Source: Thermoanaerobaculum sp.
GTDB lineage: Bacteria; Acidobacteriota; Thermoanaerobaculia; Multivoradales; UBA5704
Direction: 5' to 3'
Assembly (NCBI GenBank): GCA_021154885.1
Contig: JAJKHS010000097.1
Coordinates: 1-62,244, forward strand
DNA length: 62,244 bases
A program made the translations under genes and the position numbers. The notes under the pieces were generated by a model. The model saw only the letters and a program-made list of their open reading frames with translations. It did no database searches and had not been told where the DNA came from. Of this stretch, positions 1,087-62,244 are shown in pieces. How positions within the stretch are numbered: position 1 is the stretch's first letter; every line of letters starts with the position of its first letter.

Positions 1087-1255
1087 CAGCGCAGCATAGC
1101 AGGCCCCATCGGGTCCGCCGCCTGTAGAGGAGCACTGGAAAAATTTGGCGCCGCTCTTGCTGACATCGCCACCCACAAGGACTCTGTACCCTGCGAAATA
1201 GGTTCCTTGAGAAGAGTGGCAATAATGCCAAGCTGTTATGCTTGGGAAGAGGGGC

Positions 1256-1332
1256 GGCCAACCCTGGCGCTCCACCGGACGCCAACCGCACTATCGTGCG
1301 GCTGGCGCCGGTGAGCTTCTGAGGCGTTGGGC
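1256..1332 (+). other. attC-like integron recombination site
   Basis: A 77-bp imperfect palindrome with integron attC architecture. The left end is GGCCAAC (1256-1262) and the right end is GTTGGGC (1326-1332), matching the GTTRRRY core. The inner arms GCTCCACCGGACGCC and GGCGCCGGTGAGC pair except for two extra bases on the left arm; on the bottom strand these are an extrahelical T and G, as in classical attC hairpins. A central stem CCGCAC/GTGCGG closes the structure. The next gene starts about 50 bp downstream, normal cassette spacing. The left core has one mismatch to the perfect complement GCCCAAC. Confidence 0.8.
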
Positions 1333-1380
1333 GGACACGTCGATCGAAACTCAATAGTTGATCTCTCAAGAAAAACAGCC

Positions 1381-54859: not shown

Positions 54860-56665
54860 TTACTTCCGGCGGTTGGCCTGAAGGATCCGCTTGCGCAGGC
54901 GGAAGGAGGCGGGAGTAACCTCGACGAGCTCGTCGTCCTTGACGAACTCCAGGGCCTGCTCAAGGTTCATCAGCCGCGGCGGGATGAGGCGCACGGCGTC
55001 GTCGGAGCCGGAGGCCCGCATGTTGGTGAGCTTCTTCTCCTTGGTGATGTTGACGTCGAGGTCGTTGATGCGCGCGTGCTCGCCCACGATCATCCCCTCG
55101 TAGACCTCTTCGCCGGGAGAGAGGAAAAGCTCGCCTCGGGGCTGCAGGTTCTCGATGGCGTAAGCCGTGGTGCGGCCGACGCGGTCGGCCACCAGGGCAC
55201 CCGTGGGACGGTGGGCGATCTCCCCGTGCCACGGCTCCCAGCCGCCGAAGAGGTGGTTCATGATCCCCGTGCCCTTGGTGTCGGTGAGGAACTCGGAGCG
55301 GAAGCCGATCAGGCCCCGGGACGGCACCCGGAACTCCATGCGCACCCGGCCGGAGCCGTGGTTGACCATCTTCATCATCCGCCCCTTGCGGGCGCCCATC
55401 TTCTGGGTGACGACGCCGATGAAGTCCTCCGGGCAGTCCACCAGCAACATCTCCATGGGCTCGTGGAGCTGGCCGTCGACGTGGCGGGTGATCACCTCGG
55501 GCTTGCCCACCGACAGCTCGTAGCCTTCGCGGCGCATGCGCTCGATGAGGATGGCGAGCTGCAGCTCGCCGCGGCCGGAGATCTTGAAGGCATCCGGCGT
55601 GTCGCCGGGCTCGATGCGGATGGCGACGTTCATCAGCGACTCTTTCTCCAGCCGCTCCTTGAGCTTGCGCGAGGTGACGTGCCTGCCTTCGCGGCCGGAG
55701 AACGGCGAGTCGTTGATCGAGAAGATCATCGAGATCGTCGGCTCGTCGATCTGAATGGGGGGCAGAGGCCGCGGGTCGTCCCGCTCGGTGAGCGTCTCGC
55801 CGATGCTCACCTCCGCGATCCCGGCCACCGCGACGATGTCACCCGGCCCGGCCTCGGCGATCTCGGTGCGGCGCAGCCCCTCGTAGCCGTAGAGCAGGCT
55901 CGCCTTCACCGGCACCAGCGAGCCGTCGAGCCGGCTCAGAGCGATCTCCTGGCCCTTGCGAATACGGCCGTTGAACACGCGGCCGATGGCGAGGCGCCCC
56001 ACGTAGTCGTCGTAGTCGAGGGTGATGAGCAGGAGCTGGAGGGGCATCGCGGGATCGAAGCGCGGCGCCGGCACCGAGCGCACGATCTCCTCGAACAGCG
56101 GCTGCAGCGTCTCGTCCGGCCCGTCCAGGGTGAGGCGGCACAGCCCGGCGCGGGCGTTGCAGTAGAGCACCGGAAAGTCGAGCTGGTCCTCGGTGGCGTC
56201 GAGGTCGATGAAGAGGTCGAAGACCTCGTTGAGCACCTCGCCCACCCGGGCGTCCGGGCGGTCGATCTTGTTGATCACCACGATCGGCGGCAGCCCCGCC
56301 TCCAGCGCCTTCTTCAGCACGAAGCGGGTCTGGGGGAGCGGCCCCTCGCTGGCGTCGACCAGCAGCATCACGCCGTCCACCATCTTGAGCGTCCGCTCCA
56401 CTTCGCCGCCGAAGTCCGCATGGCCCGGGGTGTCGACGATGTTGATGCGGGTGCCGCGGTAATTGATGGCCGTGTTCTTGGCCATGATGGTGATGCCCTT
56501 CTCGCGCTCGAGGTCGATGGAGTCCATCACTCTCTCGTTCACATGCTCGTTGGCGCGGAAGATGCCGCTATGCCAGAGCATCGCGTCGACCAGGGTGGTC
56601 TTGCCATGGTCCACGTGGGCGATGATGGCGAGGTTGCGCACGTCGTCTCGGGTCTGCAAGGTCAA
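54860..56665 (-). CDS. typA: Ribosome-associated GTPase TypA/BipA
   Basis: A 601-residue translational GTPase. G-domain motifs [18 protein letters not shown] and NKIDRPDA are intact, and the elongation-factor-like domains III and V ([40 protein letters not shown]) with the BipA-specific C-terminal domain follow. It binds ribosomes during stress and assembly of the 50S subunit. Full length and well conserved. It lies alone, 99 bp from the upstream zinc-protein gene end. Confidence 0.95.
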
Positions 56666-56764
56666 AACACTCTCTCCGTTCGGGGATCAGGCGGGGCCAG
56701 GCATGGCCGCGCCTCAAGTGGGCCGGTGAGGATACCACAGACGGGGCCGGGCCCCGGAATCAGA

Positions 56765-57127
56765 TCAGACCTGCGCCAGCGCCCGCATGGCCCGGAGGGC
56801 GCGGCGGATGGTTTCCACCTCGTCGGGCTCGAAGTAGGCGAGCTCGCAGCGGTTGCAGATCCAGGCTGGGACCTGCTCCCAGGCCAGTCGGTAGCCGTCG
56901 CGGTCCACACGGACGGGAGCCGTCCCCCGCTCCACCGTTCCCTGGCAGCGCAGACAGCGCATCGGCAGCGTCTCGGGAACGGGCCGCGAGCGCGCGCCCT
57001 GTCCGAGGGGCAGGGTCGCATCCAGATCGACCGGCGGCGGGACGACGCCCCGCGGACCGGGCCGGGGTGGGGGCAGCGGAGCGGAATCGATCGCGGAAGA
57101 GAACCTGTAGCCGACATTCCTCTGCAT
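56765..57127 (-). CDS. YgiT-type zinc-finger protein
   Basis: A 120-residue protein. The C-terminal part has two CxxC pairs, MRCLRCQGTVERG and WICNRCELAYFEPDEVETIRR, matching the YgiT/MqsA N-terminal zinc finger. MqsA-like antitoxins carry an HTH after it, which is absent; instead an N-terminal 55-residue Pro-rich extension precedes the zinc finger. No MqsR-like toxin is nearby. It may be a stand-alone zinc-finger protein. Start at ATG 57127; a shorter start at the Met of MRCLRC is possible. Confidence 0.65.
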   Translation of the reverse strand: MQRNVGYRFSSAIDSAPLPPPRPGPRGVVPPPVDLDATLPLGQGARSRPVPETLPMRCLRCQGTVERGTAPVRVDRDGYRLAWEQVPAWICNRCELAYFEPDEVETIRRALRAMRALAQV

Positions 57128-57260
57128 GGGGCGCCCCCTGGTTGCTGCGACGTCAACGACGCCGATTTTACCTGCAAATCTCCTGCCCGCCATCCTGTAT
57201 AGGATCGCCAGGATCGCCGGCCTGGAATGACCCGCCCCCTGCGGGCGATTGGAAAGGACT

Positions 57261-58691
57261 ATGAGAGCCGTCCTCATCCTCACGTTCCTGCTCGCCGCGC
57301 CCGTGCTAGCGCAGCCCGCCGCCGAGCCGCCCCGTGGCCAGGTGGTCGACAAGATCGCCTGCGCCGGTGTCCCCGGGGAGACCTACGCGCTCTACCTGCC
57401 GGCCGGCTACACGCCGGAGCGCGCCTGGCCCGTCCTCTTCATCCTGGACCCCCGCTCGCGGGGCGCTCTGGCCGCCGAGCGCTTTCGCCCCGGCGCCGAG
57501 AGGTTCGGTTACGTCCTGGCCAGCTCCAACAGCTCGCTGAGCGATGGCCCGTCGGAGCCGAACGTCAAGAGCATGCGCGCGATGTGGGCGGACACCCACG
57601 CCCGCTTCAAGATCGACGACCGGCGGATCTATGCCGCGGGATTCTCGGGCACCGTGCGCTCCAACGTCCTCCTGGCCCGGGCCGTGCCCGGCACCTTCGC
57701 CGGCATCGTCGGCGCCGGCGCCGGCTGGCCTTTCGACCAGGCGCCGCGCAAGGAGGACGGCTTCGTCTTCTACGGCACCGTCGGAGACAAGGACTTCAAC
57801 TACTACGAGATGATGGACCTCGAGCCGAAGCTCACAGCCGCCGGCGTCACGCACCGGCTGGAGATCTTCGACGGCATCCACCAGTGGCCGCCGGCCGAGA
57901 TCGCCACCCGCGCTCTGGCGTGGATGGACCTCCAGGCCATGAAGGCGGGGACGATCCCCAAGGACGCCGCGCGCATTGAGGCCGCTTGGAGCGAGACGAC
58001 GGGGCGGGCCCGGGGGTACGAAACGGCCGGCGACCGGTTCCAGGCCTGGCGCACCTGGTCGGGGGCCGCCGCCGACTTCGCCGGCCTGCGCGACACGGCC
58101 GAAGCTCAGAAGAGGACGGCCGAGCTGGCGGCCGATCCCGCCCTGCAGCGCGAGGTCAAGGAACGGGCGGAACGGCTCAACCACGACAAGGAGCTCCTGG
58201 CGCAGGCCCCGGGGATCCTCGGCGCCGCCGTCAACCCTTCAGGCGAGCCCCGGACGGTGGCCCAGGTCGTAGCCCTGCTCAAGATCCATGAGCTGCGCAG
58301 GAAGGCCGAGTCGGCCCCCACCGCCGACGAGCGTCTCTCCGCCCAGCGCATCCTCAACACCCTCGGCGTGCAGACCGGCTATTACCTTCCCCAGATGTTC
58401 GGGGAGCGCAAGCAGTACGACCGCGAGGTTTTCATCCTTTCCGTCGCCACCGAGATCGATCCCAAGAGCCCCGCCGTGTTTTACAACCGGGCGGCCGCCT
58501 ACGCGAAGAAGGGCGACCGCAAGCGGGCCCTGGCCGATCTGCGCCAAGCCGCCGGCAACGGCTGGAAGGACCGGGCGGCGATCGACAAGGACGCCGATTT
58601 CGACGGGCTGCGCCAGGACCCGGAATTCAAGCAGCTCGTCCAGTCGCTGGAGGCCGGCGGCACTCCCCAGCAAGGAAGGAAGATTCCGTGA
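57261..58691 (+). CDS. Exported alpha/beta-hydrolase-like protein with TPR tail
   Basis: A 476-residue exported protein. Signal peptide LILTFLLAAPVLA is followed by a dienelactone-hydrolase/esterase-like domain (YALYLPAGYTPERAWPVLFILDPRSRG; IYAAGFSGTVRSNVLL, with G-x-S-x-G as GFSGT; HQWPPAE with the possible catalytic His). Residues 250-470 are helical and end in TPR-like repeats (SPAVFYNRAAAYAKKGDRKRALADLRQ). ATG at 57261 after GGAAAGGA. The stop overlaps the AcvB-like gene (GTGA), so both are translated together in the envelope. Confidence 0.75.
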   Translation: MRAVLILTFLLAAPVLAQPAAEPPRGQVVDKIACAGVPGETYALYLPAGYTPERAWPVLFILDPRSRGALAAERFRPGAERFGYVLASSNSSLSDGPSEPNVKSMRAMWADTHARFKIDDRRIYAAGFSGTVRSNVLLARAVPGTFAGIVGAGAGWPFDQAPRKEDGFVFYGTVGDKDFNYYEMMDLEPKLTAAGVTHRLEIFDGIHQWPPAEIATRALAWMDLQAMKAGTIPKDAARIEAAWSETTGRARGYETAGDRFQAWRTWSGAAADFAGLRDTAEAQKRTAELAADPALQREVKERAERLNHDKELLAQAPGILGAAVNPSGEPRTVAQVVALLKIHELRRKAESAPTADERLSAQRILNTLGVQTGYYLPQMFGERKQYDREVFILSVATEIDPKSPAVFYNRAAAYAKKGDRKRALADLRQAAGNGWKDRAAIDKDADFDGLRQDPEFKQLVQSLEAGGTPQQGRKIP

Positions 58692-60220
58692 AGAAGATGA
58701 CCGCGCACCTCCTCGGCCTCCTGCTCCTGGCGGCCAGCCTGCCGGACCCGGCCCGGGCGCTCAAACCCAAGGCCAGGCCTGCCGCCGCGACGCCGGCGAA
58801 GCCGCCGGCCGCGCCGGCCGCGATCACCCCGGCCAAGCCTCCCGAGAGCCTGTCGTATGGCCGCTTCGGCCAGGTGGCGATCTACCGCTCCTCGCCTCAT
58901 CCAAAGAACGTCGTCCTTTTCTTCTCGGGGGACGGCGGCTGGAACCTGGGCGTGGTGGACATGGCCCGCATATTGTCGGAGATGGACTCCCTCGTGGTCG
59001 GGATCAACGTTCCCCAGTACCTCAAGAAGCTCAACGCCTCCCAGGAGAGCTGCGTCTACCCCGCCTCCGAGCTCGAGCTGCTGAGCAAGTTCGTCCAGAA
59101 GACGCTCGGCTTGCCCACCTACGTCCCGCCGGTGCTCGTGGGCTACTCCTCCGGGGCCACCCTGGCCTACGCCGTGCTCGCGCAGGCGCCGCCCAACACC
59201 TTCCGCGGCGCCCTCAGCCTGGGCTTCTGCCCCGACCTGGACCTCCAGCATCCGCTCTGCGCCGGTCACGGCATCGCCAGCGTGCCCGGGCCAAAGAACA
59301 AGGGGCTGGTCTTTCAGCCGACCGCGACCCTGGAGGCGCCGTGGGTCGCCTTCCAGGGGACCATCGACGAGGTCTGTAACAAGGACGACGTCGTCCACTA
59401 CGTCTCGCAGGTCAAGAACGGCGAGACCGTCCTGCTGCCCGACGTCGGGCACGGCTTCTCCAAGACCTACAAGTGGGAGCCCCAGTTCCGGCAGGCGTAC
59501 CAGCGCATCCTGGAGAAGACGCCGGCGAGGCCCGCCGTCGCTGCCCCCTCAGGGGTGCCCGCGCCGGGAGGCTCCCGGAGCGGTGGCCCCGCCGTCCAGG
59601 ACCTGCCGCTGGTGGAGGTGCCAGCCAAGGGTAGCGCCTCTGGAAGCGAGCTGATGGCCGTCATCCTCTCCGGCGACGGCGGCTGGGCCGGGATCGACCG
59701 CGACGTGGCGGGGGCTCTCTCGGCGAAGGGCATCCCGGTCGTGGGGCTCAACTCGCTCCAGTACTTCTGGACCGCCCGCAATCCCGACGTCATGGCCAAG
59801 GACCTGGAACGCATCCTGCGCCACTACCTGGCGACCTGGAAGCGGCCGCAGGCGCTGCTGATCGGCTACTCCCTGGGCGCCGACGTGCTCCCCTTCGCCG
59901 CCAGCCGCCTGCCCGCCGACCTGCTGGGCAAAGTCAAGCTGATCGCCCTGCTCGGCCCCAGCACCAAGGCGGCCTTCGAGTTCCACGTCAGCGACTGGCT
60001 GGGCGGCGGCTCCTCGGGCCAGCCGGTGCTGCCGGAGGTGAAGAAGCTCGCCGGCCACCCGCCGGTCCTCTGCCTCCACGGCGCGAAGGAGAAGGACAGC
60101 CTCTGTCCGGAGCTGACGGCCGCCCTAGGCAAGTCGGTCGAGCTGCCCGGCGCCCACCACTTCGGCGGCGACTACGAGGAGCTGGCCGCCCTCATTTTGA
60201 AGGAGGCGCAGGGGAAGTGA
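58688..60220 (+). CDS. AcvB/VirJ-family exported hydrolase
   Basis: A 510-residue periplasmic protein. The signal peptide (LLGLLLLAASLPDPARA) is followed by two alpha/beta-hydrolase-like halves, both with SGDGGW and a nucleophile elbow (GYSSGAT and GYSLGADV). The C-terminal half has the full AcvB/VirJ signature (LSGDGGWAGIDRDVAGAL, GLNSLQYFW, HHFGGDYEEL). In Agrobacterium AcvB hydrolyses lysyl-phosphatidylglycerol, so a membrane-lipid or antimicrobial-peptide-resistance role is plausible. The GTG at 58688 overlaps the previous gene; ATG at 58697 is an alternative. Confidence 0.85.
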   Translation: MKKMTAHLLGLLLLAASLPDPARALKPKARPAAATPAKPPAAPAAITPAKPPESLSYGRFGQVAIYRSSPHPKNVVLFFSGDGGWNLGVVDMARILSEMDSLVVGINVPQYLKKLNASQESCVYPASELELLSKFVQKTLGLPTYVPPVLVGYSSGATLAYAVLAQAPPNTFRGALSLGFCPDLDLQHPLCAGHGIASVPGPKNKGLVFQPTATLEAPWVAFQGTIDEVCNKDDVVHYVSQVKNGETVLLPDVGHGFSKTYKWEPQFRQAYQRILEKTPARPAVAAPSGVPAPGGSRSGGPAVQDLPLVEVPAKGSASGSELMAVILSGDGGWAGIDRDVAGALSAKGIPVVGLNSLQYFWTARNPDVMAKDLERILRHYLATWKRPQALLIGYSLGADVLPFAASRLPADLLGKVKLIALLGPSTKAAFEFHVSDWLGGGSSGQPVLPEVKKLAGHPPVLCLHGAKEKDSLCPELTAALGKSVELPGAHHFGGDYEELAALILKEAQGK

Positions 60221-60898
60221 TGGGAGACGGCCGGGTGGGGCTTCTGGCAGCCCCGCTTCGACGAGGCCGCCGTGCCCACCCACGGCCTGCATGGCGGCTC
60301 TGCCGTGCCGTATAAGCCGCTGACCTTATCCACCCTCCCGAGGCGTCTAAGCCTCTGGCTCGGCCAGAGAGGATTCGGTGTATGTGATTGAGCCACAGCA
60401 GCTTACCTCTCTTACACTGCAGAGCCTGGAATGCATATCGTTGCCGGCTATCTCTCCCTGCACCCACGCCCTTGCGATGCTTATCCGAACGCCGAGAGCG
60501 GATCTGCTCCCGCCAACGCCAACCTCATCAACCAGATACGTCTGGGAGCCGGACTGGAACGCGCCTCCCACAGGGTGACCCGAAGTCGCTCCCCCCTCAG
60601 GCATGCTTATCCGAGGCATTGACGAGGTTTAGGAACAGGCGTATGATCTCAATGTTCTGTAGAATGAGGAGGATACACAAGCCGAAGGTAATTCGGACTG
60701 GAACTACGGCGAGTCGCTATGGACGTAAGGGGCAAAAGCGGAGAAGTTTAAAACGCGGTTGGGCGAAGTAACTTCTTCGGTTGTATTCGGCTAGTCCGTG
60801 CTGTTCTAGAGCCATGGCCGTCGAGACAAGGGAACAGCTTGAGCAAAGTAACGGTCGAACTTGGCACGATAGATAGTCGTAGGTAGAAAGGAGAAACG
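60221..60898. other. Gene-free 678-bp stretch before the right cassette array
   Basis: No ORF here has coding character; frames of 60-127 codons are low in family likeness and Arg/Ser-rich. Visible elements are a small hairpin CTCTGGC/GCCAGAG at 60353-60369, which may terminate the acvB-like transcript, and GTTGGGC at 60758-60764 followed by the palindrome CGAAGTAACTTCTTCG. The last fits an attI/attC-type core and may be the left edge of the first cassette. Base composition falls from here to the right end. Confidence 0.5.
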
Positions 60899-61204
60899 AT
60901 GAACAGGAGCATCCTTTTGTGCGGTCTGACAACAGCTCTCGTCGTGGTGTTCTGGATTGCGGGCCCCTCGCCGGCCAAAGCGTGGCCTCCTTATCCAATT
61001 GAACCTTATCCCGTTGACGAATATCCTAGCTGTTGCGTTGATTTCAACCAGTTGCAGGGGCAGAGTTGCCCGACGGGTACGAGAGTCGCCTGTAACTGGG
61101 GGTACTACGGGCCAGGATACTGCGAGTGCTATTACGGTACCACTTGGGAGTGCTACTCATCTCGATCAATTCCCGCTAATCCGGATCAGCCAATATGCGA
61201 TTGA
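60899..61204 (+). CDS. Secreted Cys-rich protein (cassette candidate)
   Basis: A 101-residue exported protein of no recognised family. A signal peptide (LLCGLTTALVVVFWIAGPSPAKA) ends near residue 28. The mature 73 residues contain eight Cys (SCCVDF, GQSCPTGTRVACNW, GYCECYYGTTWECY, PICD), so four disulfides are likely, and many Tyr and Gly. AGAAAGGAG site before the ATG. Lower GC than the chromosome and position between the GTTGGGC at 60758 and the attC site at 61280 fit an integron cassette. Confidence 0.7.
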   Translation: MNRSILLCGLTTALVVVFWIAGPSPAKAWPPYPIEPYPVDEYPSCCVDFNQLQGQSCPTGTRVACNWGYYGPGYCECYYGTTWECYSSRSIPANPDQPICD

Positions 61205-61279
61205 GAGGATTTGGGCCAGGTTATGGTGACAAATCTGCCTGTCGGCACACGCGACCTACGGCCAACTCACATCTCTGGC

Positions 61280-61355
61280 GCCCAACCCAATCGGTCGAGC
61301 GGACGGGGACCGCCCTGTCGTGCGGTCCCGCCGCTCACCTCCTACTCCGTTGGGC
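61280..61355 (+). other. attC site of an integron cassette
   Basis: GCCCAAC (61280-61286) and GTTGGGC (61349-61355) are perfect reverse complements. The inner arms GAGCGGACGGGGACCGC and GCGGTCCCGCCGCTC pair with two extra bases in the left arm, giving extrahelical bases on the bottom strand, one a T. The central CGCCCTGTCG part is the variable loop. 76 bp long. It lies 76 bp after the stop of the Cys-rich gene and 62 bp before the next start. Confidence 0.88.
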
Positions 61356-61416
61356 GCGATTTACAAGGTCGATGATTAGATCGAAATCCATTCTTGACTA
61401 ACGCCAGGGAGAGGCT

Positions 61417-61875
61417 ATGCGCGGAACTCTAGAGATACGAGTCACCTTGGTTGTGATGACCGCTTTAGCCTTCGGCTGCGGAGGGGGATCATCTTCTCCG
61501 ACGGAGCCAGCAGCTCGGCGTGATACGCTCGTCCTACTTAGTGTGGACCCTCCAGAAGGCACGCGCGTGCAACTTGGCGGGGAGGTACAGGTGCTTGCCC
61601 GGTTCCGTTATACATTTGAACAGCCTGCTGGCGGCAAGATTGGTGTAATCGTGCATCCGCTGCCTTTCGGTTTACCGCTCCTTACGAATCCGCTTATCGC
61701 CCAAGCCGACGTCGAAGGGCAGGAAGGTGAGGCGACACTCCGCTTCGCCATCTTGCTAGACGATCCTGACCAGCAGTTGCGCCCTGGGCTCATCGCGGCA
61801 GATTTTGTGTTGTTCCCTCGAGGCCAGAGAGAGTCAACGGCCAGTGTCCTGATTCGCTACGAGGTCGTACCCTAG
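61417..61875 (+). CDS. Lipoprotein of unknown function (cassette candidate)
   Basis: A 152-residue protein. A hydrophobic signal (VTLVVMTALAFGCGGGSSS) with Cys in a lipobox-like AFGC context suggests lipidation. The mature part is predicted beta-rich (DTLVLLSVDPPEGTRVQLGG; VLARFRYTFEQPAGGKIGVIVH; VLIRYEVVP), like an immunoglobulin-like domain. No family match. It begins 62 bp after the attC site at 61280-61355 and ends 65 bp before a decayed attC-like site, so it is one complete cassette. Confidence 0.7.
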   Translation: MRGTLEIRVTLVVMTALAFGCGGGSSSPTEPAARRDTLVLLSVDPPEGTRVQLGGEVQVLARFRYTFEQPAGGKIGVIVHPLPFGLPLLTNPLIAQADVEGQEGEATLRFAILLDDPDQQLRPGLIAADFVLFPRGQRESTASVLIRYEVVP

Positions 61876-61939
61876 GCAGGCCCGAATAGAGGTCCACAAT
61901 TGTCGAAGCAGACTGTCTTTAAGATCGCTTCGGAGAGTC

Positions 61940-62007
61940 GCCCAACCTAGGCTCCTGCACCGGACTGCCGGCTTCGCCGTCAGCCGGTGAGGGCAGAAGC
62001 GTTTCGC
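61940..62007 (+). other. Decayed attC-like site
   Basis: GCCCAAC at 61940-61946 starts a 68-bp imperfect palindrome whose arms CTGCACCGGACTG and CAGCCGGTGAGGGCAG pair with extra bases on each side, as in attC. The right core reads GTTTCGC (62001-62007), which departs from GTTRRRY. It is probably a degraded or alternative attC. A 61-codon frame crosses it on the minus strand and is not treated as a gene. Confidence 0.5.
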
Positions 62008-62158
62008 CGTCGGGGCGGTAGGACTTCAGCATCGAGCCGCCCGGGTGCTCCACCGGGGGTTGCCCGAGAACGGCTCCGTGGAGCTTCCAGTCACCAGCCG
62101 GCACGCCGTGTCGCCCAGCGCTCCGGTCGTGTTAGTCTAGGGCGGCCAGGAGGCCGCC

Positions 62159-62244
62159 ATGCAACACCGCTTGACCATCGATTACGGCGACGACGTCCTC
62201 TTCAGTAGTGGCCTGACGCGCGGAGCCTTCGACGAAGAGGCCCG
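62159..62244 (+). CDS. UPF0175-like antitoxin, 5' part only
   Basis: The frame runs off the window after about 28 codons. The translated start MQHRLTIDYGDDVLFSSGLTR resembles UPF0175 proteins (short strand I-x-x-P/D-x-x-D-V-L-x-S followed by acidic residues and a helix), which are HTH antitoxins. AGGAGG lies 8 bp upstream. It follows the second attC-like site, so it fits a further cassette carrying a toxin-antitoxin gene, common in integrons. Identification rests on a very short piece. Confidence 0.4.
   Translation, partial: MQHRLTIDYGDDVLFSSGLTRGAFDEEA

Follow-up and report, generated by a model that had tools for sequence, protein, structure and literature searches.

The usual picture of an integron has one integrase gene (intI), one attI site and one cassette promoter (Pc), and because it holds a single Pc, only the cassettes nearest to this promoter are strongly expressed. 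In class 1 integrons the promoter precedes attI and intI is oriented the opposite way. The minimal consensus of attI1 is AAACAAAGTTRRRY, and mobile integrons may contain delta-attI-type cassettes, in which attI fragments (14-18 nt, attI1 types) replace attC inside the array (PMC12901181). The sedentary chromosomal integron of Treponema has one attI per integron, with intI pointing towards attI (PMC3607928). Clusters of attC sites lacking an integron integrase are called CALINs (PMC8618304, PMC9024848, PMC12444791) and can be mobilised in trans (PMC12444791). According to PMC9024848, little has been described of attI sites other than those of class 1, and IntegronFinder 2.0 does not detect them. 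Since such sites go undetected, attI heads could hide among many known CALINs.

The attC site and its cassette array

We analysed a stretch of 62,244 nt from Thermoanaerobaculum sp. (the window), which is the whole of contig C97. The original prediction placed an attC site at 61280-61355 on the forward strand, and the cores bear out these exact coordinates. By sequence, we regard it as confirmed as a genuine gene-cassette recombination site. The core R'' (GCCCAAC, 61280-61286) is the exact complement of R' (GTTGGGC, 61349-61355), as had been claimed. The single-stranded bottom strand folded with -25.3 kcal/mol (z = -4.2, equalled by 0 of 200 shuffles), and a lone T and a lone G bulged from one arm. 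Extrahelical T and G are a feature of canonical attC sites. When 20 attC sites of the same genome were aligned, the consensus fold predicted 10 inner-arm pairs, with compensatory change in 7, and no outer core pairs. The covariance model made from this alignment (R1) scored the site at 80 bits, a value that is partly circular because the site is in the training set. A DNA search of the genome with this stretch found five places besides itself. The neighboring ORFs are close, as predicted; the upstream one ends at 61204 and the downstream one starts at 61417, and the measured distances are 75 and 61 bp instead of 62-76 bp.

The site belongs to the first of at least two cassettes that, judged from their cores, lie behind an attI core at 60758-60764. 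All of these features are on the forward strand. Cassette 1 (60759-61349, reaching from the attI core as far as the G within the attC core, as inferred from the G/TT cut) contains an ORF of 101 aa (60899-61204). Cassette 2 (61350-62001, inferred from both attC cores) contains an ORF of 152 aa (61417-61875). Neither product had a Pfam match; by eye both look exported, the first probably so and the second lipoprotein-like. Cassette 2 has a further attC at 61940-62007, matched by R1 over 61939-62009. It is weaker (R1 34 bits, E 0.005; absent from the R1 training set), with a degenerate R' (GTTTCGC) and outer arms that are unpaired in the fold. A third cassette ORF may tentatively start at 62159 and is open at the contig end (62159-62244, by eye). 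Because the window is the whole contig, the array stops at 62244. The cluster predicted to run off the window therefore runs off the assembly too, and the data support that 61280-61355 is part of a cassette array truncated by the contig end. Neither finding named in advance as speaking against an array was obtained, since a second attC lies before the contig end and the genome contains the sequence at other places as well. An Rfam search of 55000-62244 gave no match.

A separate attC lies at the left end of the window (1255-1333, forward strand; R1 77 bits as a training-set site, fold z -6.0). A search for attI upstream of it found none. It is followed by a DUF1801 ORF (1327-1752) and a PhzC/PhzF-like ORF, and preceded by an APH-family ORF on the opposite strand.

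We then compared the right-end locus with the parts of a complete integron. An attI joining site and a Pc are present as judged from sequence, and a foldable bottom-strand attC lies between single-gene cassettes, the second attC being weak. The intI gene that was to be sought within 5 kb of the attC was not found, either with TIGR02249 on C97 or by tblastn of the window with IntI of relatives. As in a CALIN, C97 has at least two attC sites and no neighboring intI, within a view limited rightward by the contig end. An attG, an insertion site without common attI sequence, does not describe the locus, which shares leader and core with other copies.

Repeated leaders and attC sites in the genome

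The sequence before cassette 1, which the original prediction had overlooked, is a repeated leader of 480 bp (60285-60764, forward strand), identified by DNA search of the genome and alignment; 12 further places of varying length were found. We read it as Pc plus attI. The putative sigma70-type Pc, supported by consensus scan and conservation, consists of TTGACG (60619-60624), a 17-nt spacer and TATGAT (60642-60647), with the -10 lying 110 nt upstream of attI. Homology between copies ends at the attI core GTTGGGC (60758-60764; AAAC-GCG-GTTGGGC with the preceding bases), where cassette 1 is joined after the G. The aligned copies have the TTGACG-17-TATGAT promoter in common (spacers of 16-18 nt in single copies) and end at core GTT, mostly GTTNNNCG, with nothing in common beyond. 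With core positions picked by eye, the mean pairwise identity of 11 copies was 0.73 over the 20 nt before the core plus GTT vs. 0.35 over the next 20 nt. The promoter is the most conserved block of 10 aligned copies; the share of the commonest base was 0.91 in the promoter block, 0.95 in the hexamers and 0.73 from promoter to core.

A sequence-only model (R2) was made from these 10 copies and applied at E<=1, with the best 150 candidates scored. The 8.2-Mb genome gave at least 28 matches, at least 20 of full length and 8 partial. By eye they form family A (the 10 training copies and partial copies at C35 and C148), family B (seven copies at C38, C62, C59, C143:101432, C55, C108 and C116) and other copies, C57 being single and C132 and C17 paired. 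In family B identity falls from 0.71 to 0.41 at the core, and two of the seven have ATT instead of GTT. When 3 mismatches at most were allowed, the promoter pattern occurred 18 times in the genome vs. 0 in the reversed control. Fourteen of these matches are at full attI copies, one belongs to the partial C35 copy, which lies at a contig end, and three (C4, C42:109331 and C53:39604) are without attI. Six partial R2 matches (L128 7762-7823 and 4447-4488, L067 7330-7363, L066 3585-3636, L096 3582-3651, L127 6033-6099) contain the promoter end without an attI core; they may be either remnants of heads or the same promoter in other use. In named species genomes, among which our genome is possibly absent, the exact attI pattern had 0 matches.

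A mobile repeat, MITE-like or transposon-borne, might have spread promoter and attI, with arrays growing behind it later. The copies lie at many places with different neighbors, and in one relative (G023) the homologous segment of contig C37 begins exactly at the stop codon of the C51 intI, as such a unit might. However, the 5' ends of homology vary between copies, unlike a unit with fixed ends, and the leader had no match in plasmid and phage collections. We consider this origin highly improbable.

Even less credit can be given to an artefact of assembly or binning, in which foreign arrays or one fragmented integron would mimic many heads. The genome is a draft of 161 contigs (96.6% complete, 1.7% contamination), and several attC arrays reach contig ends. 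However, the 10 copies of the alignment are not identical (mean column identity 76%) and have different continuations, 12 of the 20 full copies among the matches listed are on contigs of at least 48 kb, and relatives also have repeated heads (see below). A single intI may possibly lie in an assembly gap, which would leave the multi-head picture unchanged.

For the attC census, a pattern search with CCCAAC-N40-70-GTTGGG gave 18 places per strand vs. 8 in the control, all but the window site unrelated by eye. The GAGCGG..CCGCTCA pattern gave 23 per strand vs. 40 and 31 in controls, though true sites were included. A stem scan in Python returned far too many false sites and was replaced by the covariance model R1 (E<=1, best 150 candidates scored). 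R1 found at least 42 attC sites in the genome; 38 were at E<0.01, 20 of them training sites.

Linkage of heads to attC was counted with all 42 R1 and all 28 R2 matches of the whole-genome lists. Among these matches, 18 full heads are followed by 1.4 kb or more of contig, and 15 of these 18 had a same-strand attC no further than 1.7 kb downstream; 0 of 18 had one upstream and 0 of 18 had one downstream on the other strand. About 0.004 per site would be expected by chance. For heads outside the R2 training set the count was 7 of 10, again among the matches listed. A closer search behind the heads raised the 15 to 17 of 18 by adding a long match at C57 (41 bits) and a weak one at C143:101432 (21 bits). 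The site behind the C132 head, already among the 15, is weak with 25 bits. The full attI of C38 has no attC after it, even in this closer search. Fifty-one of 63 matches were used there; 10 opposite-strand shadows of stronger matches and two weak matches (L071 3363 and L099 1787) were omitted.

Among the matches listed, 28 of 42 attC sites follow a full attI or the C148 copy at a distance of up to 7 kb, and 14 of 42, including the left-end site of the window, have no attI in the preceding 7 kb. The latter would fit off-target insertion, in which an integrase places cassettes at secondary, attG-like sites and the repeated leader is incidental; this is one proposed origin of CALINs (PMC8618304). 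However, a common leader of about 150 nt or longer, with a promoter and ending at a core, is unexpected at scattered secondary sites, and it precedes the 28. Off-target insertion is thus unlikely for the headed arrays, and as a general account we give it hardly any weight.

To survey the cargo, cassette ORFs were extracted as the longest per strand and cassette, with at least 50 aa. Among 15 chosen cassette proteins, Pfam assigned six families, one protein each: PF00144 (beta-lactamase-family), DUF3471, TraB/PrgY/gumN, TIR_2, TIR and DUF5677 (borderline). No homologues between arrays of this genome were found among the extracted ORFs at E<=0.001; since no cassette is common to two arrays, movement between heads was not seen. 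The first cassettes of C132 (L095) and of contig C843 of the genus mate G001 (L129) form a distantly related TIR-type pair (24% over 115 aa), and these TIR-domain-like cassettes are possibly defence genes.

Integrase genes, relatives and the origin of the heads

No intact intI was found in the genome; the best TIGR02249 match, 84 C-terminal positions at C75, scored 122 bits vs. a cut-off of 265. Tblastn of selected loci with IntI of relatives gave remnants of 83 aa (67%) at C75 and of 39 aa (44%) at C42, the latter about 180 nt before its attI. Both remnants are on the cassette strand just upstream of attI copies, which indicates that intI once preceded attI and pointed at it. There are 13 PF00589 matches in the genome. 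The recombinases of C118, C126 and C95 were rejected as integrases (25-34% identity to IntI of relatives, 29-34% for C118 and C126), and C95 scored best with XerC and XerD. The first cassette behind the C75 remnant encodes a 517-aa PF00144 serine hydrolase of the beta-lactamase family, probably with DUF3471 (L047 14703-16256). No intI over the TIGR02249 cut-off was found in our genome and its two genus mates (G001 and G002), so the heads there may no longer be in use.

Attention was then turned to the relatives. R1 at E<=0.001 had matches in 21 of 40 genomes, our own counted. Outside the training genome it detected an attC beside intI at four (G004, G011, G019, G030) of the 12 loci of relatives that contain intI. 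All six genomes of one genus, g5 (G006, G014, G021, G027, G032, G039), had neither an R1 match at E<=0.001 nor an intI match at E<=1e-30. R2 at E<=0.01 matched three of 40 genomes, namely our own and the two genus mates with two matches each. Of these four genus-mate sites, three are followed by an attC, which is strong in one case (80 bits) and weak in the other two (24 and 20 bits); behind the fourth the contig ends. Three of four matches were used in that listing, one shadow being omitted. R2 had no match near intI in 12 loci of relatives, so the tie to their intI genes rests on repeats within each genome. Because R2 misses more distant relatives, arrays were compared by blastn within each of five genomes. 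Their loci had been chosen for holding attC, and their attI-attC linkage is therefore no independent test.

Repeated leaders ending at a GTT core were present in all five genomes compared (G023, G015, G011, G029, G002), and attI-like leaders are repeated in six of 39 relatives when G001 is included. In three of the six (G011, G015 and G023), one of several leaders has next to it the one intact intI that exceeds the cut-off, and none was found in G001, G002 and G029. G023 has six leaders, one directly behind the intact intI. G015 has three leaders in three of four loci, one of them after intI. G011 has two in two of five loci, one after intI; with two copies alone, this case is weaker. G029 has three leaders among seven loci and no intI match at E<=1e-30. 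In G002, leaders of two families occur at five of 10 loci, with a clear GTT core in four copies and none in two. The promoter layout in G023 and G015 has an 18-nt spacer and a -10 at 88-124 nt before the core, and the spacer in G002 is 17 nt. No TTGAC promoter pattern was found in the G029 and G011 leaders. The order intI, attI, cassettes on one strand is the same in G011, G015, G023 and at the C75 and C42 remnants. The last 127 bp of the intI contig of G023 are the same as those with which its contig C16 begins, and the C16 array appears to continue the intI contig. The attC sites of this C16 array and of the remote C37 array are 89-95% identical, as expected if one integrase handles both arrays.

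Some further observations were made at these loci. A small ORF directly after the intI 3' end, opposite to the intI strand, is conserved in G023, G015 and G022 (L163 8301-8534 (-), L169 11299-11487 (+), L072 1314-1436 (+), L162 7365-7523 (+); 51-61% in tblastn, the G023 ORF being the query) and partly kept in a remote intI-less leader of G023. It had no Pfam match; by eye it is possibly a ribbon-helix-helix regulator. A repeat of another kind than the leaders occurs in G029, where about 620-630 bp containing an attC recur at 93-96% identity near three contig ends (L150 5641-6271, L153 1-637, L156 4045-4664). The VirJ-family neighbor gene, whose relatives are in Acidobacteriota, Proteobacteria and Myxococcota, occurs at 9 loci in named genomes. 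These loci gave no attI and just two attC matches of 17 bits, and thus no empty site was obtained.

From the attC sites, the attI core, the promoter hexamers, the cassette order, about twenty heads and the failure to find an intact intI, all read in the sequence, we arrive at an explanation that is probably correct as a whole: these are attI/Pc-headed cassette arrays of intI-bearing ancestry that were served in trans and then lost intI. The structure rests firmly on sequence, and the action in trans is what we infer from it. The putative Pc before attI would drive transcription of the window cassettes. In the ancestral integrons, intI would have been upstream of attI on the cassette strand, to judge from the C75 and C42 remnants. 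The heads would then have multiplied, with a single integrase serving all of them in trans, and intI beside most heads would have been lost with Pc and attI retained. G011, G015 and G023 would represent the state in which one intact intI is still kept beside one of several heads. In our genome the integrase may have been lost or remained unassembled; its arrays may be either frozen and just expressed or served by an integrase missing from the assembly.

The main rival is that the heads are independent fossils, i.e., separate complete integrons that were acquired or duplicated at various times and each lost intI, without sharing in trans ever being important. The several attI families seen by eye and the intI remnants at two loci are explained by it. 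In addition, a third of known intI genes have been reported as pseudogenes and a fifth of integron bacteria as having more than one intI (PMC2426708). It explains less well that the heads have retained both promoter and core, with the promoter more conserved than other parts of the leader, and that relatives with one intact intI have several heads too. Moreover, just two intI remnants vs. 20 full heads were found in the loci searched. We consider independent fossils unlikely, with a clearly better claim than the other alternatives.

Under the explanation that we prefer, the integrons of this bacterial order may be distributed, with one trans-acting integrase serving many chromosomal Pc/attI heads. 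As part of the same reading, some lineages, e.g., this genus, would have shed the integrase and kept promoter-driven arrays. We propose this view tentatively, as a real possibility that falls somewhat short of being probable.

Comparison with known integron systems

If this view is true, about twenty Pc/attI heads would lift the expression limit of an integron with one Pc. Many cassettes would occupy the expressed first position simultaneously, and the genome would amount to integrons working in parallel. In other organisms, many of the elements classed as CALINs may then carry overlooked attI heads. Standard integron software would not report an arrangement of about twenty headed arrays without an intact intI. 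When the arrays of a genome are compared with each other upstream of their first attC, attI can be recognised without prior knowledge, and the leaders found in this way are substrates ready for testing. In the open-access literature we came across no description of multiple Pc/attI heads accompanied by a single integrase or none, nor of CALINs with conserved heads, which is weak evidence of absence.

The window array resembles class 1 integrons in having Pc before attI and differs from them in the direction of the presumed ancestral intI. Compared at the core alone, AAAC-GCG-GTTGGGC of the window is shaped like the minimal attI1 consensus AAACAAAGTTRRRY (PMC12901181). Like delta-attI cassettes, as described in the parts of that source compared, the genome has several attI-derived sequences; here, however, whole Pc/attI leaders head separate arrays. 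In the Treponema integron, as outlined in PMC3607928, intI, attI and cassettes are on one strand, similar to the C75 and C42 remnants and to G011, G015 and G023, but here a genome has many attI sites and no more than one intact intI. The Xanthomonas CALINs also occupy several loci dispersed from the intI locus, whereas no attI heads are described in the passages of PMC12444791 compared. With CALINs in general the window array shares at least two attC sites, cassettes and the lack of a nearby intI. It differs from them in its own Pc/attI head, one head family occurring about 20 times in the genome, and such attI heads are absent from the CALIN descriptions compared.
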